This document shows, piece after piece, positions 28,767 to 39,800 of a DNA stretch of 52,660 nucleotides. The stretch comes from an uncultured bacterium (GTDB lineage Bacteria; Bacillota; Clostridia; Oscillospirales; Oscillospiraceae): assembly GCA_947383145.1 (NCBI GenBank), contig CANDCH010000015.1:1-52660 (forward strand). The letters are read 5' to 3'. The position numbers were made by a program, and so were the translations under genes. The notes under the pieces were generated by a model that did not search any database, was not told the DNA's origin, and saw only the letters and a program-made list of their open reading frames with translations. The first letter of the stretch is position 1. Each line of letters begins with the position of its first letter.

Positions 28767-30158
28767 TTATTTTTTTCCCGGCCGGGGCATGAGCGGCGTG
28801 CCCTCGGCGTCCATCCGCCGGAACAGATAGGCCAGGATGGCGGCGGCCGCGGCGGCCAGCGCCACCTCCGCCACGGTCTGGGCGCAGGCCAGGCCGTACA
28901 GCGGGAAAAAGAAGTTCAAAATGTACAAAGCGGGGATCTCCAGCACGATCTTGCGCAGGACGGCAAACAGCAGGGCGTACTGCCCCAGGCCGCAGGCCTG
29001 GAACACGCCCACCGCCAGAAAATCCAGGCACAGGAAGGGCTGGGCCACGCACATGCACCGCAGGAACCGGGAGCCGTAGGCCACCACGGCCTCGGTCTTC
29101 ATGAACAGGCCGATAAGGGGACCGGAGGCGAAGAAATAGCACACCGAAACCACGGCCATAAAGGACAGGGATATCCTTTCCGCGAACAGAACGGCCTTTT
29201 TCAGCCGGGGGACGTTGCCGCCGCCGTAGTTGTAGCTCACCAGGGGCATCAGGCCCTGGGAAATGCCCATGGCGACGTACATGGGAATCATGTTGATTTT
29301 GTAGGCGATGCCCATGGCGGCGATGGCGTCCGGCCCGAAGGCGGCGGTGAAGTTGTTGAGCACCGTCATGCCGGTGACGTTGAGCAGGTTCTGAATGGAG
29401 GCGGGCACCCCCACGCCGAACACCCCTCTCACCAGCGCCCTGCGGGGCCGCGCCATGGCGGGCCGGACGCAGACATAGGTGTTTCCCCGCCGGACGAACA
29501 GCAGGACAAAAAAGTACAGACAGGCGAAGCAGTTGGACAGGAAGGTGGCCAGCCCCGCCCCCGCCGCCCCCATGCCCAGCCCCCAGGGGAGGATAAAAAT
29601 GGGGTCCAGCACAATGTTCAGGGCGCAGCCGCTCATGGCGCCGACGCTGGCGTGGAGGGTGGCCCCCTCCGCCCGCACCAGGTAGGCCAGCACCACGTTG
29701 AGGATGGCGGGCACCGCCCCCCAGCTCACCGTCCAGCGCATATACTCCAGCGTGGCGGCGCCGGTGGCGCCGTCCGCCCCCAGCACCCCAAGCAGCGGGA
29801 CGCGGAACACCGTGGCCAGCGCGGAAAACAGCACGCCGCTGAGCAGCGCGCAGTAAAAGCCGAAGGCGGAGCTCCGGCGCACGGTGTCGTAATCCTTCGC
29901 CCCCAGGGAGCGGCTCATCATGCTGCTGGAGCCCACGCCGAAGAGGTTGTTCACCGCGTTGAACGCCAGAAGCACCGGCGCGGCCAGCGTGACGGCGGAG
30001 TTCTGGATGGGGTCCTCAAGCATCCCCACAAAATAGGTGTCCGCCAGGTTGTACAGCACCATCACCAGCGAGCTGAGGACGGTGGGGACGGACAGGGCCA
30101 GCACCGCCCTGGGAATGGGCATCCGTTCAAAGAGCTCGGTTTTCCGCGTATCTTCCAT
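28767..30158 (-). CDS. MATE-family efflux transporter
   Basis: A 463-residue, 12-helix multidrug and toxic-compound exporter. The family pattern is seen in PTVLSSLVMVLYNLADTYFVG near the N-terminus and in the matching second half (GVPASIQNLLNVTGMTVLNNF). MATE proteins exchange Na+ or H+ for drugs across the membrane. The promoter at 30263-30291 and a 15-base inverted repeat in its leader suggest regulation by a local repressor, which is not encoded nearby. A second, different MATE gene lies at 38228. Confidence 0.9.
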   Translation of the reverse strand: MEDTRKTELFERMPIPRAVLALSVPTVLSSLVMVLYNLADTYFVGMLEDPIQNSAVTLAAPVLLAFNAVNNLFGVGSSSMMSRSLGAKDYDTVRRSSAFGFYCALLSGVLFSALATVFRVPLLGVLGADGATGAATLEYMRWTVSWGAVPAILNVVLAYLVRAEGATLHASVGAMSGCALNIVLDPIFILPWGLGMGAAGAGLATFLSNCFACLYFFVLLFVRRGNTYVCVRPAMARPRRALVRGVFGVGVPASIQNLLNVTGMTVLNNFTAAFGPDAIAAMGIAYKINMIPMYVAMGISQGLMPLVSYNYGGGNVPRLKKAVLFAERISLSFMAVVSVCYFFASGPLIGLFMKTEAVVAYGSRFLRCMCVAQPFLCLDFLAVGVFQACGLGQYALLFAVLRKIVLEIPALYILNFFFPLYGLACAQTVAEVALAAAAAAILAYLFRRMDAEGTPLMPRPGKK

Positions 30159-30349: not shown

Positions 30350-32179
30350 TTATGCCCCCAGCACCTTCGCCGCGTTTTCCTCGGCGAACTGCTTGCTGTA
30401 CAGGTCGTGGTAGTAGCCCCGGGCCCGGAGCAGGGACTGGTGAGTGCCCTGCTCCACAATCCTGCCGTCCTTGACCACCAGGATCATATCCGCCTTGCGG
30501 ATGGTGGAAAGCCGGTGGGCGATGAGGAAGGAGGTGCGGTTCCGAAGCAGGTGGTCAATGGCGTTTTGGATATACTGCTCGGTCTGGGTGTCAATGGAGG
30601 AGGTGGCCTCATCCAGCACAAAGATCCGCGGGTCGGCCAGCACCGCCCGGGCAAAGGAGATCAGCTGCTTTTCGCCGGTGGACAGGCGGTCGCCCTCCTC
30701 GCCCACGTCGCTGTCCCAGCCCTTTTCCAGCTTGGCCGCCACCTGGTCCGCCGACACGGCCCGGGCCGCCGCCTCAATCTCGGCGTCGGAGGCGTCCAGC
30801 CGCCCGTAGCGGATGTTCTCCCGGACAGACCCGGAAAACAGGTGGGGGCTTTGCAGCACATAGCCGATGTTGGAATGGAGCCAGAGCTGGCTGCGCTCCC
30901 GGTAGTCCCGGCCGTCGATGAGAATCTGGCCCTGGGTGGGCTCAAAGAACCGGCAGGCCAGATTGACCAGGGTGGACTTGCCCGCCCCCGTCTCCCCCAC
31001 GATGGCCACGGTGGTCCCCGCCGGGATTTTCAGATTGAAGTGCTCCAGCACGTTGTCCCCGCCGTCGGGATAGCGGAAGGTCACGTCCCGGAACTCGATC
31101 TCCCCTTCCAGCGGCTCCCAGTTCTCCCGCTTGGGGGCGAAGCAGTCGCCGTATTTCTCCACCACCTCCGGCGTGTCGGTGACCTGGGGCTTCTCGTCCA
31201 ACAGGCCGGTGACCCGCTCGATGGACGCCTGGACGGCGATGAACTCCGCCAGATTGCCCGTCAGGTTCTGGATGGGCTCGAAGATGTTCATGGCGTAGGT
31301 GATGAAGGCGGACAGGGTGGCGATCTCCATCACCTGCCCCTCCACCAGCCAGCCCCCCCGCAGCAGCACGATGGCCACCGTCAGGGTGGAGAAGAACAGG
31401 GTCGCCGGGATATACACCGCGTTGAGCCTTGCCGCCCGGACGGCGGAGCGGTTCATATTCCCCGTCAGGTCCTTGAAGCCCTTGATGCTCTGCTCCTCGA
31501 TGACCAGAGTTTTGGTGGTCTTGGCCCCGGTGATGCCCTCGTTGAAGGCCCCGGTGATTTTGGAGTTGATCTTGCGCACCTTCCGGGTCCAGTGGAGGAT
31601 GCGGGGCTGAAACCAGCCGGTGAGGGCCGCCGCGAAGGGCACCACCAGCATGACCACCAGGGCCAGACGCCAGTTGAGCAGCAGCATGGCGGCGAAGGAG
31701 CCCGTCACATAGAACAGGGCGTCGGCGATGTCCATCAGCCCCCAGGCGATGTTGCCGGCGATGCGGTTGGTGTCGTTGGTCACCCGGGTGAGGAGATAGC
31801 CCACCGGGGTCACGTTGAAGAAGGACAGGGACAGGGTCTGCAAATGCTCAAACAGGTCCCGGCGCAGGTCGCGGCCCAGATACATCTCAATGTGCATGGC
31901 CTGCCTGGTGGTGGCCACCACCAGCACGCTCTGGGCAGCGATGGCCGCCAGATAGCTCAGCGCGAAGGGGGCCAGCCCGTCCAGCGTGCCCGCCTCAATG
32001 AAGCTGGCGATGGCGTACTTCTGGAACAGGGGGAAGGACACGTCCACCGCAGCGGACAGCGCCATAAAGGCCACCATTCCGATGAAATACCCCTTGAAGC
32101 GGGCCAGAATGGGGACCAGCCGCCTCCAGATGGACCAGTCAAAAGCCTGGGTATACTCTTTCTCATCAAAGGCGGCCAT
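30350..32179 (-). CDS. Heterodimeric ABC exporter half, canonical ATP site (BmrD-like)
   Basis: A 609-residue ABC half-exporter: six membrane helices (about 25-330), then a nucleotide-binding domain with Walker A GETGAGKST, signature LSTGEKQLISFARA and Walker B IFVLDEATSSID, with the catalytic Glu present. The altered signature (LSTGEKQ in place of LSGGQ) together with the neighbour's degenerate Walker B matches heterodimers such as BmrCD, LmrCD and TM287/288, which export drugs. Its ATG overlaps the stop of the upstream partner by one base (TAATG). The terminator at 30306 ends the transcript. Confidence 0.92.
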   Translation of the reverse strand: MAAFDEKEYTQAFDWSIWRRLVPILARFKGYFIGMVAFMALSAAVDVSFPLFQKYAIASFIEAGTLDGLAPFALSYLAAIAAQSVLVVATTRQAMHIEMYLGRDLRRDLFEHLQTLSLSFFNVTPVGYLLTRVTNDTNRIAGNIAWGLMDIADALFYVTGSFAAMLLLNWRLALVVMLVVPFAAALTGWFQPRILHWTRKVRKINSKITGAFNEGITGAKTTKTLVIEEQSIKGFKDLTGNMNRSAVRAARLNAVYIPATLFFSTLTVAIVLLRGGWLVEGQVMEIATLSAFITYAMNIFEPIQNLTGNLAEFIAVQASIERVTGLLDEKPQVTDTPEVVEKYGDCFAPKRENWEPLEGEIEFRDVTFRYPDGGDNVLEHFNLKIPAGTTVAIVGETGAGKSTLVNLACRFFEPTQGQILIDGRDYRERSQLWLHSNIGYVLQSPHLFSGSVRENIRYGRLDASDAEIEAAARAVSADQVAAKLEKGWDSDVGEEGDRLSTGEKQLISFARAVLADPRIFVLDEATSSIDTQTEQYIQNAIDHLLRNRTSFLIAHRLSTIRKADMILVVKDGRIVEQGTHQSLLRARGYYHDLYSKQFAEENAAKVLGA

Positions 32180-34020
32180 TACGCCTCCCCTCCTTCCTCC
32201 ACCAGGGCGCGGTCGTCGCTGCTCATCTGGATGTCGTAAATTTCCTTATAGATGCCGGGCCGGGAGATCAGCTCGGCGTGGGTCCCGATGTCCGACACCC
32301 GGCCCCCGTCCAGCACCAGGATGCGGTCGGCCTGCATCAGCGTGGTCACCCGGTGGGAGATGAGGATGACGGTGGCCTGGGACATGCGCTCCTTCAGGGC
32401 GGCCCGGATCTTGGCGTCCGTCTCGGCGTCCACGGCGGACAGGGAGTCGTCAAACACCATCACCGGCGCGTTTTGCAGCAGCATACGGGCGATGGCCACC
32501 CGCTGCTTCTGCCCGCCGGACAGGGTGACTCCCCGCTCCCCCACCACGGTGTCATAGCCGTTTTGCAGATCGGCGATGGCCTCGTCCACGCAGGCGGTCC
32601 GGGCGCAGGCGCGCAGCTCCTCCTCCGGGGCGTCCGGCCGGGTGGCGGCGATGTTCTCCCGGATGGTCTGGGAGAACAGGAAAGGCTCCTGGAGCACCAG
32701 GCCCACCTGTCGCCGCAGGCTGGCCCGGCTGATGTCCCGGATGTCCACCCCGCCCACGGTGATGGTCCCCTGCCCCTCCCCCAGGTCATAGAGGCGGTCC
32801 AGCAGGTGGACCAGGGTGGACTTGCCGGACCCCGTCCCCCCCAGCACGGCGAAGGTGGACCCCCAGGGGATGGTGAAGGACACGTCCCGGAGGACCTCCT
32901 GCCCCTCATAGCCGAAGGCGACATGGTCGAACACGATATCTCCGCCCAGCGGCACATCCCCGGCGCCGGGCCGGTCGGCCTCCTCCTCCGCCCGGAGGAT
33001 GTGGCCCACCCGGTCCATGGACACCCCGGCCTTGCTCATCTCGGACAGCACCCGGCCCAGGGACCGCACCGGCCACGCCATGGCGCTGTTGTAGATGACG
33101 AACGCCTGAAAGTCGCCCAGGGTGATGGAGCCTTCCACCGCCGCCACGGTTCCGGCCACGATCACCGCCATGATCTGGAGGCAGACCAGGAACACGCCGG
33201 AGGCCCAGTAGACGCTGAGCACCTTGCCCAGCTCCACCCACAGGCTGGAAAAGCGGTTATTTTTCTGGGCGAAGCGGTCGATCTCAAACCGCTCCCGCCC
33301 GAAGGCCCGCACCACCCGGACGCCGGTGAGATTCTCCTGGGCGCAGGTGGTCAGCTCGCCCTCCGCCTCGTCGGCGGCCTGAAACCGGGCGGATATCTTG
33401 CCGTAAAACACCCCGGAGGCCAGCCCCGTCACCGGGATGAAGGCCAGGGGGATCAGGGCCAGCCTCCAGTTCATCATCAGCATGATGCCGGTGTACAGCG
33501 CGATGAGAAACACCGTGCGCAGCACCTCCATCAGCTGGTTGCACACGAAGGTCCGGATCACCTCCACATCGGAGGTGCACCGCTGGATGATGTCGCCGGT
33601 GGCGTGGGCGGTGTGCCAGTCAAAGCTGAGGCGCTGGATGTGGCTGTACAGGTTGTCCCGGAGCTTTTTCACAAAGCCCTCGGAGCCCTTGGCCAGGTTG
33701 ATCCGCATTCCGAAAATGCACACGCCCCGGACGGCGGCGGCCAGCACCACCGCCCCCGCCGCCATCCACAGGGCGGCCCAGGGGTCGCCGCGGAGCCGGT
33801 CCAGGGGGAGCAGCGCCCGGAGAAAGCCGGGCAGCTCTGGCTCCTCGCTGCCCAGCACCGAGTCCACGGTGACGCCGATGATCTGCGGAATGACCGCGTT
33901 GCACACGGTGTTCATGTATGCCAGCAGGATAGCCCCGGCGAAAAAGCCCCAGCTCCCCTGCAGATGCCGCAGGATGAGGGCGGTTTTGTCCCGCCGGGAC
34001 AGTTTGGTATTGGATTCCAT
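32179..34020 (-). CDS. Heterodimeric ABC exporter half, degenerate ATP site (BmrC-like)
   Basis: A 613-residue ABC half-exporter: six membrane helices followed by a nucleotide-binding domain with Walker A GGTGSGKST, signature TLSGGQKQR and H-loop LISHR. Walker B reads VMVFDDSLSAVD: the catalytic Glu is Asp, as in BmrC-type partners whose own site does not hydrolyse ATP efficiently. ATG 34020 is chosen because it follows GGGAGAA and marks the start of homology. Only 37 bases separate it from the terminator at 34058-34087, leaving no space for a promoter. Expression must therefore come through that terminator from the leader-peptide promoter. Confidence 0.93.
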   Translation of the reverse strand: MESNTKLSRRDKTALILRHLQGSWGFFAGAILLAYMNTVCNAVIPQIIGVTVDSVLGSEEPELPGFLRALLPLDRLRGDPWAALWMAAGAVVLAAAVRGVCIFGMRINLAKGSEGFVKKLRDNLYSHIQRLSFDWHTAHATGDIIQRCTSDVEVIRTFVCNQLMEVLRTVFLIALYTGIMLMMNWRLALIPLAFIPVTGLASGVFYGKISARFQAADEAEGELTTCAQENLTGVRVVRAFGRERFEIDRFAQKNNRFSSLWVELGKVLSVYWASGVFLVCLQIMAVIVAGTVAAVEGSITLGDFQAFVIYNSAMAWPVRSLGRVLSEMSKAGVSMDRVGHILRAEEEADRPGAGDVPLGGDIVFDHVAFGYEGQEVLRDVSFTIPWGSTFAVLGGTGSGKSTLVHLLDRLYDLGEGQGTITVGGVDIRDISRASLRRQVGLVLQEPFLFSQTIRENIAATRPDAPEEELRACARTACVDEAIADLQNGYDTVVGERGVTLSGGQKQRVAIARMLLQNAPVMVFDDSLSAVDAETDAKIRAALKERMSQATVILISHRVTTLMQADRILVLDGGRVSDIGTHAELISRPGIYKEIYDIQMSSDDRALVEEGGEA

Positions 34021-34057: not shown

Positions 34058-34087
34058 AAAAAAGCGCCCCTCTGGACAGAGGGGCGC
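34058..34087 (-). terminator. Terminator between leader peptide A and the exporter (attenuator)
   Basis: A 10-bp stem (34064-34073 with 34078-34087) is followed by six T on the minus strand. It lies between peptide A and the exporter start, 29 bases after the peptide stop. Its stem differs from the second copy (34345-34369) by a C-G to T-A exchange that keeps pairing. Confidence 0.9.
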
Positions 34088-34116
34088 GGCAAACCAACGG
34101 TGCGGAAAGGAGAATC

Positions 34117-34221
34117 CTATCCCCGCCCAAAGGCGCACAAATACCCCAACGGTCCACTCTTTCCATGGAAAAACGCGGCATTGGCCCCAAAGCCCCAAAA
34201 ATTAGCGGCGGTAATCATCAT
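34117..34221 (-). CDS. 34-residue leader or signal peptide A
   Basis: A complete small gene: consensus promoter (34267-34295), AAAGGAGG eight bases before ATG 34221, 34 codons, TAG stop. The product begins MMITAANFWGFG and ends SGPLGYLCAFGRG. It is the same length as peptide B, and the aligned positions 22-32 share the pattern SG-x-LGYLC-x-x-G, so the two are homologous. It is directly upstream of a terminator and then the exporter genes. The best reading is a leader peptide whose translation decides whether transcription passes the terminator, as known for bmrB in front of bmrCD. A secreted or modified peptide exported by the ABC pair is the alternative. Confidence 0.78.
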   Translation of the reverse strand: MMITAANFWGFGANAAFFHGKSGPLGYLCAFGRG

Positions 34222-34266
34222 GGTGTGCGCCTCCTTTCGTCGTGTAATCAGTTCACAGTGTTGCCC

Positions 34267-34295
34267 AGTATATTCCTTCTCCCCGGCGTTGTCAA
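34267..34295 (-). promoter_or_regulatory. Sigma-A promoter A of the exporter operon
   Basis: On the minus strand, TTGACA (34295-34290) and TATACT (34272-34267) are 17 bases apart, a full consensus. The -35 box sits in the palindrome GTTGTCAAC (34288-34296), a feature shared with promoter B. Confidence 0.9.
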
Positions 34296-34338
34296 CCCTT
34301 TTTTTCGTCAATGGAGAGGAAATTTTCCGCCTGAGCGC

Positions 34339-34369
34339 AAAAAAGCGTCCCTCTGGACCAGAGGGACGC
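34339..34369 (-). terminator. Terminator of peptide B cassette
   Basis: A 10-bp or longer stem (34345-34354 with 34360-34369) is followed by six T on the minus strand, 19 bases after the peptide B stop. It is clearly related to the terminator at 34058-34087. Confidence 0.9.
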
Positions 34370-34388
34370 CCGCCAAGGGGAAGCCGGA

Positions 34389-34493
34389 TTATTTAAGCCC
34401 GCACAGGCACAGATACCCCAGCAGCCCGCTGTTCTCGATTTTGCCCTCATCCTTGTAGAGGAGCTTTACCTCCATGATCTTGTTGAAGTCCAT
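34389..34493 (-). CDS. 34-residue leader or signal peptide B
   Basis: A second complete small gene: promoter 34541-34569, AAGGAGG nine bases before ATG 34493, 34 codons, TAA stop, then its own terminator. The product begins MDFNKIMEVKLLYKDEG and ends SGLLGYLCLCGLK. The first 20 residues differ fully from peptide A, while SG-L-LGYLC-x-x-G is kept at the same distance from both ends. Selection is therefore on the C-terminal peptide and the total length. It has no export signal and no protease site of the double-Gly type. Function is unknown; it is probably a paralogue of peptide A acting in the same circuit. Confidence 0.75.
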   Translation of the reverse strand: MDFNKIMEVKLLYKDEGKIENSGLLGYLCLCGLK

Positions 34494-34540
34494 CCTTCAG
34501 CGCCTCCTTCCATCCTGGAATGATCTCTCATTTCGGGCTC

Positions 34541-34569
34541 AGTATACCTCTTGCCGCACAGGTTGTCAA
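34541..34569 (-). promoter_or_regulatory. Sigma-A promoter B of the upstream peptide cassette
   Basis: On the minus strand, TTGACA (34569-34564) and TATACT (34546-34541) are 17 bases apart. The palindrome GGTTGTCAACC (34561-34571) covers the -35 box. Confidence 0.9.
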
Positions 34570-35948: not shown

Positions 35949-35983
35949 CAGCCCGGCCTCACTGGAGGTCCGGGCTGCTCAGC
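35949..35983 (-). terminator. Terminator of the two-component operon
   Basis: A GC-rich hairpin (arms AGCAGCCCGG/CCGGGCTGCT with an inner CCTC/GAGG stem) overlaps the end of the kinase gene and is followed by a short T/C run on the minus strand. Confidence 0.7.
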
Positions 35984-37265
35984 CGTTCAGGGGAATGAGG
36001 ATTTTCAGGGTGAAATATCCCTGTCCGGCGTTCACCGTGGTGAAGCCGCCGTACTGGCCCACCGTATGCCGGATGCTCTTCAATCCAAAGCCGTGGTAGC
36101 CGTCCCCCGCCTTGGTGGTCAGGGGCAGGCCGTCCCGGAAGGACAGCTCCCCCTCCATGGGGTTGACCACCTGAAGGACCAGAAACTGCCGGTCCCGGCA
36201 GATGAGCACGTCGATCATCCGCTTCTCCGGCCCGTCCAGCCCCTGCACCCCCTCGATGGCGTTATCCAGGGCGTTGCCCAGCACGGCGTACAGGTCCACC
36301 GGGTCCATAAAGGCAAGCTGCTCCCCGTCGGCCACACAGCCCAGCCGGATGCCGTTGGCCTCGCAGTACAGGCTCTTCTCAGTGAGCACCGTGTCCAGCA
36401 CCTCGTTGCCCGTCTGGAAAATGGCGTCGTAGATGCGCACCGACTCCTCCGCCTCCCGCAGGTACCGCTCCTGGTTCTCCGCCCCCGCCATGGCGCGGAC
36501 GGCGGCCAGCTGGTGCTTCATGTCGTGGCACTTCCGGTTGATGATGGCAATGGTCTCCTTGGACAGGCGGTACTGCTCCTTCTGCCGGTGCCACAGCTGG
36601 TTCAGGGTGTCCAGTTCCTTTTTCATGGCGCTTTTGGAGAACAGGGTGTACTGAAAATAGAGCATGGTGGCGCAGTAGCACTGGGCCAGCCAGACGCTGG
36701 CCGGGTACAGCGCGCCGGCGCCGCTCGCGTCCATGTCGGAGTACATCCGCCAGCACAGCACCTCAAACACCGCCAGGGACAGCAGAGACAGGGTGAGCTG
36801 CCGGGGTCCCACCAGGTAGGTCCCCTTGTGGGGCATCCACCGCGCCAGCGTCAGGGTGATAACGACGCAGGCGCCGGCAAACAGCAGTACTCCCAGCCCC
36901 ACCCAAGCCGAAGAGCTCCACCCCACACGGGGAGAGAGCTGCCAGATGGCCATTATGAGAGACTCCGCCACCAGCTGGTGGGAAATCTGAACCCACACGG
37001 CGCCATACAGCGCCCCGGGCAGGGACAGCTCGCCGCACACCAGGAAAAACAGGGCGGAATAGCCGAAGGCCGCCGCCATGGTCCCCCACATGGGAAGGGG
37101 GCGGAGCAGCTCCGCCGCGCCGGCCGCCAGCCAGATCAGGGCCAGCGCCAGCATGGCGGCGGCCCGCCCCGCGGGGCGGGGCCGCTTGTCCAGCGGGCGC
37201 AGATAGCTGACGCACACCAGCCACAGCGCCAGAGGCCCGCCCTCCAGCAAAAAGCCGTCCATCAC
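35979..37265 (-). CDS. AgrC-type sensor histidine kinase
   Basis: A 428-residue membrane sensor. Six or seven hydrophobic segments (1-205) form the sensor. A short helix leads to the phosphorylated His in KCHDMKHQLAAV, and a GHKL ATP-binding domain follows: LGNALDNAIEGVQ (N box) and GYHGFGLKSI (G box). This layout is that of AgrC/GHKL quorum sensors. The start overlaps the regulator's stop as ATGA. No agrB or agrD is visible in the window, so the inducing signal is unknown. Confidence 0.87.
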   Translation of the reverse strand: MMDGFLLEGGPLALWLVCVSYLRPLDKRPRPAGRAAAMLALALIWLAAGAAELLRPLPMWGTMAAAFGYSALFFLVCGELSLPGALYGAVWVQISHQLVAESLIMAIWQLSPRVGWSSSAWVGLGVLLFAGACVVITLTLARWMPHKGTYLVGPRQLTLSLLSLAVFEVLCWRMYSDMDASGAGALYPASVWLAQCYCATMLYFQYTLFSKSAMKKELDTLNQLWHRQKEQYRLSKETIAIINRKCHDMKHQLAAVRAMAGAENQERYLREAEESVRIYDAIFQTGNEVLDTVLTEKSLYCEANGIRLGCVADGEQLAFMDPVDLYAVLGNALDNAIEGVQGLDGPEKRMIDVLICRDRQFLVLQVVNPMEGELSFRDGLPLTTKAGDGYHGFGLKSIRHTVGQYGGFTTVNAGQGYFTLKILIPLNG

Positions 37266-37969
37266 GCCCCGCCCCCCACGTAGTTGGTCAGGGCGGTCAT
37301 AAAGGCCGCGCGGTTCCTCCGGCTGATCTCCAGCTCATGTCCGGCCACCACCGCCACGTCCCGGCGCACCTCGGTGACATGGTACAGATTCACCAGATAC
37401 CAGTAATTGCACCGCACAAAGTGCCGGTCCCCCAGCTGGCTCTCCGCCTCCTTCATGCTGCCCCGGAGGACATACTCCCCCTGGTCCGTATGGTAGTGGA
37501 GCCGCCGGTCCTGTATCTCCACATAGTAAATCTGCCGGGTGTCCAGCCGCACCGCGCCGCCGGGCAGGGTGAGCACAAGCTGAGACGCCGCACGCCGGTC
37601 CACCAGGCGCGCCGCCCGGTCCAGCTTGACGGAAAAGGTGTAGTAATCCACCGGCTTGAGCACAAAGTCCAGCGCCCCCACGGAATAGCCCTGGATGGCG
37701 TACTGGGCCATATTGGTGATGAACACAATAACCACGTTCTGGTCCGTCCGGCGGATCTGCTCCGCCGCGGCCATGCCGTCCACCTGGGGCATCTCGATGT
37801 CCAGAAGTATGATGTCGTATACCGGCCGGTAGTCCGCCAGGAGCTCGCTGCCGTCCCGGAACGCCGCCACCTCCAGCGGCGTCCCCCGCTCGGCCTCGTA
37901 CCGGGCCAAAAATCCCTCCATCTGCGCCAGGACGGAGGGCTCGTCCTCCACAACCGCAACGCGAAGCAA
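37262..37969 (-). CDS. LytTR-family response regulator (AgrA-like)
   Basis: A 235-residue transcription regulator. The receiver domain (VVEDE near the start, phospho-acceptor Asp in IILLDIEMPQVDG, Lys in FVLKPVDYYTF) is followed by a LytTR DNA-binding domain (IYYVEIQDRRLHYHT, FVRCNYWYLVNLYHVTEV). The start is taken as TTG 37969 (product LRVAVVEDE), with GGAGG eight bases upstream; the GTG at 37978 abuts that site. It is cotranscribed with and upstream of its kinase. LytTR proteins bind pairs of direct repeats; none was defined here. Confidence 0.88.
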   Translation of the reverse strand: MLRVAVVEDEPSVLAQMEGFLARYEAERGTPLEVAAFRDGSELLADYRPVYDIILLDIEMPQVDGMAAAEQIRRTDQNVVIVFITNMAQYAIQGYSVGALDFVLKPVDYYTFSVKLDRAARLVDRRAASQLVLTLPGGAVRLDTRQIYYVEIQDRRLHYHTDQGEYVLRGSMKEAESQLGDRHFVRCNYWYLVNLYHVTEVRRDVAVVAGHELEISRRNRAAFMTALTNYVGGGA

Positions 37970-38024
37970 TGTCCGCACCTCCCTAATATCGCCAAAGCGC
38001 CGCTGATTATATCATTGACATCAG

Positions 38025-39677: not shown

Positions 39678-39699
39678 AGAGCCGTACAATTGAATAACC

Positions 39700-39800
39700 C
39701 TTATCAAGAGTGGCGGAGGGACCGGCCCGATGAAGCCACGGCAACCTGCTTTGCAAGGTGCCAAGTCCGGCGGAAACGCAAGATGAGGAGAGAACTGAGC
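39700..39800 (+). promoter_or_regulatory. SAM-I riboswitch (S-box)
   Basis: The conserved S-box core is present: CTTATCAAGAG, GGAGGGACCGGCCCGATGAAG, then CGGCAACC, GGTGCCAAGTCC and GATGAGGAGAG. It binds S-adenosylmethionine. With the terminator just downstream and metK next, the expected logic is premature termination when SAM is plentiful. Confidence 0.95.

Follow-up and report, generated by a model that had tools for sequence, protein, structure and literature searches.

In Bacillus subtilis, the vmlR leader carries a three-codon upstream open reading frame (uORF), and inhibitors that stall initiating ribosomes on it block an anti-antiterminator, whereupon an antiterminator replaces the intrinsic terminator; other tripeptides also function as the uORF, according to the portion of the vmlR study drawn on here (PMC9226507). 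In bmrB-bmrCD of the same organism, readthrough depends on translation of the leader (PMC4191407), and the accessible passages on both systems report that induction is removed by loss of leader translation (PMC4191407 for bmrB, PMC9226507 for vmlR). The uORFs of toiL, cplR, and vga(A) are likewise described, in the available part of PMC12121999, as reporting ribosomes stalled at start codons. Here we present a leader that very probably acts as a ribosome-linked attenuator of an ABC exporter, as judged by comparative sequence analysis. It lies in a 52,660-nucleotide stretch, henceforth the window, from an uncultured member of the Oscillospiraceae (contig CANDCH010000015.1). An earlier sequence-only reading had proposed that two peptide-coding cassettes located here follow a bmrB-bmrCD-like attenuation logic, perhaps with a new arrest or sensing peptide or, as a competing idea, that they encode small exported peptides.

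Two leader cassettes in front of an exporter gene pair

Both cassettes occupy the minus strand from 34569 to 34058, and each comprises, as the sequence-only reading had it, a TTGACA-17-TATACT promoter-like site, a GGAGG, a 34-codon open reading frame, and an intrinsic terminator. In cassette 1, the promoter-like site (34541..34569), whose pattern recurs in cassette 1 of a second locus (L011), precedes the uORF MDFNKIMEVKLLYKDEGKIENSGLLGYLCLCGLK (34389..34493, stop included) and a terminator stem (34345..34369) with a T tract running to 34339. The cassette as a whole (34339..34521) is matched by our leader RNA model at 57.4 bits (E of 4e-13), having been outside the training set of that model. 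In cassette 2, the promoter-like site lies at 34267..34295 and the uORF, MMITAANFWGFGANAAFFHGKSGPLGYLCAFGRG, at 34117..34221, stop included. We number the RNA strands in the order 1 (Shine-Dalgarno region), 2' and 2 (end of the uORF), and 3 and 4 (terminator). Strand 1 of cassette 2, GGAGGCGCACA (34224..34234), has its partner at 34139-34129, namely strand 2, TGTGCGCCTTT (34129..34139), the Shine-Dalgarno complement near the end of the uORF; next to it, within the uORF, is the proposed antiterminator strand 2', GGACCGTTGGGGTATT (34140..34155). Strands 3 and 4 form the terminator (34064..34087, T tract to 34058), which begins 29 bases past the uORF stop and whose 5' arm is the proposed partner of the antiterminator strand; 2' and 3 carry GGGG/CCCC in the window and GGGA/TCCC in L011. 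From the last T of the terminator to the exporter ATG at 34020 there are 37 bases, exactly as had been noted, and a promoter scan found no minus-strand promoter-like site in this interval; for scale, the 6.5 kb scanned have 8 promoter-like sites as against a mean of 1.4 in shuffled sequence.

The two window peptides share residues 22-32 (SGLLGYLCLCG versus SGPLGYLCAFG), and their terminator stems are distinguished by a single paired exchange, T-A versus C-G, which preserves folding as the sequence-only reading had observed. Cassette 1 is diverged, and its 1:2 stem is no better than chance: against dinucleotide shuffles, p is 0.57 for cassette 1 versus 0.008 for cassette 2. The sole homologue seen of its peptide is at L011/L082, a single locus, and the cassette is known from two species alone. 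Between this homologue and cassette 1, the body of the uORF has 2 nonsynonymous and 5 synonymous changes (pN/pS of 0.09 over just these 7 changes), and selection on the cassette 1 peptide is therefore possible, small as the numbers are. A search with this peptide in 60 relatives gave seven matches, namely itself, L008, L006, and four within open frames of 567-1215 codons; L008 is a true relative, and L006 proved unrelated on reading.

The exporter subunits are encoded at 32179..34020 and 30350..32179 on the minus strand by two half-exporter genes that overlap by one base, and they match the solved BmrC/YheI, BmrD/YheH, and TM_0288 chains. Subunit 1 has VFDDS after the Walker B motif, a degenerate site; subunit 2 has an intact DEATS and a degenerate signature, LSTGE. 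A degenerate site in one subunit combined with an intact one in the other is the mark of heterodimeric exporters with one degenerate site. By these sequence features, the pair is predicted to be a heterodimeric exporter of the BmrCD/TM287-288 type, built of two half-transporters with one degenerate ATP site. Following the pair on the same strand is a MATE-family efflux gene (28767-30158), which possibly belongs to the same operon. The window also holds genes for a GHKL-type histidine kinase and an adjacent response regulator (35979-37978, minus strand), located before a lactaldehyde reductase gene, and a SAM riboswitch (39698-39789, plus strand; Rfam RF00162, 79.9 bits). The riboswitch, which lies outside the leader, is the sole match at gathering score in an Rfam search of the window; within the leader, Rfam gave 16 sub-threshold hits, each far under its gathering score.

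Distribution of the leader

The exporter is present in 32 of the 42 genomes of the window's genus (33 matches), and three of the 33 loci were set aside, L035 and L039 for lying at contig ends and L042 as a 47% paralogue. At all 30 assessable genus loci, a uORF, a Shine-Dalgarno sequence, and a terminator stand directly 5' of the exporter, and the leader model matches all 30, including L038, L040, and L041 from outside its training set. The duplication of the cassette stressed by the sequence-only reading holds for the window (L010) and L011; at the other genus loci, however, there is no second leader-model match (33 exporter loci searched). With 10 or more of 12 positions required to match, a promoter is seen in 42 of 45 leaders, the two first cassettes counted; L040 and L041 are without one, and in L021 it lies farther upstream than the range scanned. 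The leader is present at each of ten close named loci (E of 7.5e-27 or lower); an eleventh, L092, has a distant exporter and is without a leader.

In the wider family, 78 of 400 genomes match the leader model at an E of 0.01 or lower and 15 at an E below 2e-7, the latter being our cut-off for calling leaders in family genomes. The leaders called outside the genus are nine (L047, L048, and L051-L057); among five weaker matches examined, L058, L059, L061, and L062 lack the exporter motif. Exporter homologues number 29 in 200 family genomes besides the window's, 12 of them at 53% identity or more and 17 at 41-48%. The closer ones come from other genera of the family; with L102 left out as incomplete, 11 can be assessed, and 9 of these have a leader-model match, 3 of the 9 being training members of the model. 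Two, L103 and L104, have no convincing leader; none of the 17 exporters at 41-48% identity has a match at an E of 1 or lower.

At the level of the order, 394 genomes yielded 12 matches at an E of 1e-5 or lower: four are known from the genus or family; L073, L074, L076, and L075 stand before the exporter in two other families; L077 stands before another ABC transmembrane protein; and L078 and L080 stand before other genes. The twelfth, L079, is a false match, and another candidate, G000:C5 (L122), proved to be no more than a terminator. At the level of the class, 391 genomes were searched, and the sole match at an E of 1e-5 or lower was the window's own genome. Thus, in model searches reaching up to the class, the leader is found in one order, and an exporter orthologue is visible downstream of every exporter-type leader except L051, whose record ends too soon. 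The leader model can be used to find such leaders in genomes.

Covariation of the RNA strands

RNAalifold, applied unprompted to 30 leaders, predicts the 1:2 stem and the 3:4 terminator. In the structure so named, 93.9% of cells pair in these 30 leaders and 97.7% in 35 leaders from five genera, where two-sided changes occur in 39 cells versus 6.8 in shuffles (0/500). We then permuted partners among 25 clades, set by eye rather than from a tree and represented by one leader each, drawn from 45 leaders. The 1:2 and 3:4 pairings stand far apart from the permuted sets (z of -6.9 and -8.7, respectively, each 0/5000), and 2':3 does so at z of -3.3 (5/5000). Reversed-strand controls gave 367/5000 for 1:2, 2460 and 3048 of 5000 for 2':3, and 3028/5000 for 1:3, and the other pairings 1:4 and 2':4 gave 2655/5000 and 663/5000. 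The 2:3 pairing gave 40/2000 in 41 leaders of 22 clades; strand 2 proper against strand 3 showed no covariation (1216/5000). The covariation check for an antiterminator that the sequence-only reading had called for is accordingly favorable for 2':3 in the 45 leaders but flat for strand 2 proper. It is also divided in five leaders outside the models, found via the exporter and then via the model, in which 1:2 outperforms the swap mean in 5/5 but 2':3 in only 2/5. A direct pairing of the Shine-Dalgarno region with the terminator 5' arm (1:3) was considered and rejected; 94.8% of it is pairable, yet covariation is absent (95/500; 931/2000; 2018 and 2035 of 5000).

Leader by leader, 1:2 surpasses dinucleotide shuffles at p of 0.05 or lower in 42 of 50. 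The best 2:3 duplex includes at least three bases of strand 2 in 39 of 45 leaders, and the uORF stop falls 6-15 bases past strand 2 in 42 of 45. The uORF end also pairs with the post-stop spacer more than permutation predicts (2/5000); this comparison is not a clean control because the signal probably reflects local hairpin folding at the stop codon, around which a short hairpin recurs in, for example, L023, L025, and L034.

A peptide motif as the footprint of RNA pairing

Across the 45 leaders, the uORF bodies are dissimilar and range from 20 to 39 codons; the length of exactly 34 codons put forward by the sequence-only reading fits both window cassettes but not the family. What is conserved is a run of letters near the uORF end, typically GGGAxxTTTGCGCGCC, which, with reading frames judged by eye, is read as L-R/C-A in most leaders, as A-A-R-L in L028, L030, and L032, and in further frames in L056, L057, L095, and L099. 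This run is complementary to the Shine-Dalgarno region of the leader in which it stands, and the two vary together, the respective Shine-Dalgarno and uORF-end members being GGCGCACA/TGTGCGCC in the window, GGCGTGCAA/TTGCACGCC in L020, GGCGCGCGA/TCGCGCGCC in L018, GGCGCACCG/CGGTGCGCC in L040, GGCGTACAC/GTGTGCGCC in L054, GGTGCACAA/TTGTGCACC in L073, and GGCATACAGG/CCTGTATGCC in L095. The shared C terminus is, on this comparative evidence, the predicted footprint of an RNA element and not of a conserved peptide. The SG-x-LGYLC-x-x-G motif reported earlier is thus present in both window peptides but does not hold as a conserved peptide, its frame differing among leaders. More generally, a conserved peptide motif beside a transporter can be the shadow of RNA pairing.

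Proposed mechanism

The sequence comparisons support the promoter, the uORF, the terminator, and the linkage to the exporter, together with covariation for 1:2 and 3:4 and, less strongly, for 2':3. At this level, the bmrB-bmrCD-like logic suggested by the sequence-only reading is borne out, every one of the 30 assessable genus loci having the uORF, the terminator, and the covarying pairings. From these elements, we infer that the uORF would be translated, that the ribosome would be the sensor, and that inhibitors stalling initiation would be the natural signal; the direction of the switch given below is likely. We propose, with somewhat better than even confidence, a start-stall wiring in which strand 1 is the ribosome-binding site. 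Transcription from the strong promoter would pass the 20-39-codon uORF and, by default, end at the terminator 3:4. Strand 1, the Shine-Dalgarno sequence of the uORF, would pair with strand 2, its last codons, as an anti-antiterminator. If, during synthesis of the terminator, a ribosome were held on the Shine-Dalgarno sequence or within the initial three or four codons, it would cover strand 1, and the freed strand 2 and the stretch just 5' of it could then pair with the terminator 5' arm (2:3), such that termination would fail and the exporter would be transcribed. A ribosome reaching the stop would cover strand 2, and the terminator would win; in an untranslated leader, 1:2 would form, and the terminator would again win. 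Given that the stop lies 6-15 bases past strand 2, a ribosome that completes the uORF would occupy that strand or lie beside it.

Folding was modeled in 41 leaders for the moment at which the polymerase has just cleared strand 3, on the assumption that the ribosome covers -14 to +15. When no ribosome was present, a median fraction of 0.05 of strand 3 was paired with strand 2. With a ribosome at codons 1, 3, 5, and 8, the value was 0.62, 0.60, 0.14, and 0.05, respectively, and near the end it was 0.00-0.01. In 31 of the 41 leaders, placing the ribosome at codon 1 raised the fraction by more than 0.2. The model fails for both window cassettes: cassette 2 goes from 0.11 to 0.01, strand 3 pairing with the uORF body instead, and cassette 1 goes from 0.11 to 0.16. 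Shuffled controls, run on 39 leaders with L040 and L041 excluded, also switch in part (0.435 native versus 0.251, 0.164, and 0.369 with strand 2, strand 1, and the body shuffled, respectively), and the total share of strand 3 that is sequestered increases from 0.54 to 0.68 only. In full-length equilibrium folds, the median terminator fraction is 1.04 with no ribosome and 1.01, 1.00, and 0.99 with one at codon 1, codon 3, and the end, respectively; because the complete terminator dominates at equilibrium regardless of the ribosome, the switch must be kinetic, with 2:3 forming first.

Methionine-rich uORFs and other leaders on the same plan

A weak leader-model match, L060 (1501-1675, minus strand), has a 30-codon uORF, MRNCYGMMMDRMGMMRMPTSPRACFPVVTR, before a gene for a MetN-like ATPase (358 bits, under the NCBIfam cut-off of 499.7). 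Such methionine-rich uORFs (L060 and L123-L127), with a terminator present, occur in five of the six genomes from a different genus within the family and have 6-8 methionines per 29-32 codons. Their Shine-Dalgarno sequences can pair with the uORF end in new letters, as in GGGGAAC with GTTTCCCC (L125), and strand 2 also matches the terminator 5' arm, GTGGGAAGC; the duplex energies are -12.7 to -21.8 kcal/mol. From its sequence, this leader appears to be a methionine attenuator organized like the exporter leader, and since strand 2 in this shared plan matches the terminator 5' arm, 1:2 and 2:3 are favored as alternatives to each other. The Met codons are at about codons 7-17, away from the start, and a ribosome stalled there would therefore cover the start site only via a queued second ribosome; this either counts against the start-stall reading or offers an additional route for triggering the switch.

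L078:1500-1680 and L080:1500-1633 have tiny uORFs, MMNIIYIGCYRDRRIAL and MMNIYIYRMSYVSPAVS, with a Shine-Dalgarno sequence GGCGATC or GGCGAT complementary to the end of the frame and a CGGATG that matches the terminator arm CATCCG; their downstream genes match DUF2207_C (weakly), DUF2284, and PF09818. L077:1209-1434, from another family of the order, is a leader-like match, and the ABC transmembrane protein that follows it is extended at its N terminus, with PF00664 at residues 206-479.

Alternative explanations

The relation of 1:2 to the antiterminator pairing admits an opposite logic, in which 1:2 and 2':3 coexist as a pseudoknot antiterminator when no ribosome translates the leader, and uORF translation destroys it; absence of leader translation would then switch the exporter on. 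Because 2':3 covaries while strand 2 proper with 3 does not, the two pairings need not exclude each other, and 2' indeed sits in the loop of 1:2. However, the entry of at least three strand 2 bases into the best 2:3 duplex in 39 of 45 leaders implies competition with 1:2, and bmrB and vmlR, as far as the available accounts go, lose induction without leader translation; we regard this reading as rather unlikely. A simpler view, unlikely too but carrying some weight, is that 1:2 merely limits leader translation or is a polymerase pause hairpin, the terminator setting a fixed low readthrough. The support for 1:2 and 3:4, far above that for 2':3, and the weakness of 2':3 in leaders outside the models would agree with it; against it are the covariation of 2':3 with flat reversed-strand controls and the stop placed 6-15 bases past strand 2 in 42 of 45 leaders, which a pause hairpin would not need.

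The remaining alternatives place the function in the peptide. That the shared C terminus is an arrest or sensing peptide finds some favor in the L-(R/C)-A frame of strand 2 in most leaders and in the pN/pS of the bodies, 0.09 for cassette 1 and 0.50 over 14 chosen pairs, but it is quite improbable as an account of the family: the bodies are unalike, the frame is another one in several lineages (L028, L030, L032, L056, L057, L095, and L099), and 1:2 covariation accounts for the conserved letters, which follow the Shine-Dalgarno region they pair with. The notion that the exporter carries a family of small exported or bacteriocin-like peptides draws on the adjacency of the peptide genes to an ABC exporter; yet bodies and lengths vary, the cassette peptides have no match in Pfam or NCBIfam, and NHLP and peptide-cleavage exporter models score far under their cut-offs, making it exceedingly improbable.

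Taking the above together, we favor a ribosome-linked attenuator triggered by stalling at the start. If this is true, the exporter leader would be a sequence-independent start-stall sensor, in which any agent holding initiation, on any peptide, turns the exporter on, and uncultured Oscillospiraceae-like bacteria would sense ribosome-targeting compounds and raise the exporter in a manner readable from their genomes alone. The same wiring in the same family would then carry methionine-rich uORFs before a MetN-like gene, and may serve other genes (L077, L078, and L080). Whether these leaders form a class of wiring defined by the use of the uORF's own ribosome-binding site as the strand that switches is, in our estimate, an evenly balanced proposition.

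Comparison with known systems

The E. coli trp attenuator is wired as 1:2 / 2:3 / 3:4, and the present leader is proposed to have attenuator wiring of this type; unlike trp, the exporter leaders are without a run of codons for a single amino acid, and strand 1 is the ribosome-binding site. With vmlR it has in common a uORF, an anti-antiterminator, and an intrinsic terminator, together with an antiterminator that is here a proposed one, as described in the part of PMC9226507 drawn on here. There, the uORF is in a hairpin bulge, and the Shine-Dalgarno sequence is single-stranded and precedes the hairpin (PMC9226507), whereas the present leader has 20-39 codons, and the Shine-Dalgarno sequence is itself the paired 5' strand; moreover, the vmlR gene, by the same partial account, codes for an ABC-F factor and the present gene for an exporter. 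The bmrB-bmrCD system resembles it in having a uORF, an intrinsic terminator, and a heterodimeric BmrCD-type exporter downstream, but, comparing by description from the accessible text (PMC4191407), the bmrB terminator lies within a 53-residue uORF and that of the present leader after the stop. The main text on the patAB attenuator of Streptococcus pneumoniae, in the portion available, leaves a leader peptide unmentioned (PMC4319486), and toiL of E. coli differs in controlling translation and Rho-dependent termination, per the available part of PMC12121999. The open literature, including the accessible portions of PMC11109978 and PMC8632094 and with subscription journals outside its scope, gave no description of this leader element. 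Thus, the logic is already known from vmlR and bmrB-bmrCD, and the anatomy, the hosts, and the pairing with an exporter appear to be new.
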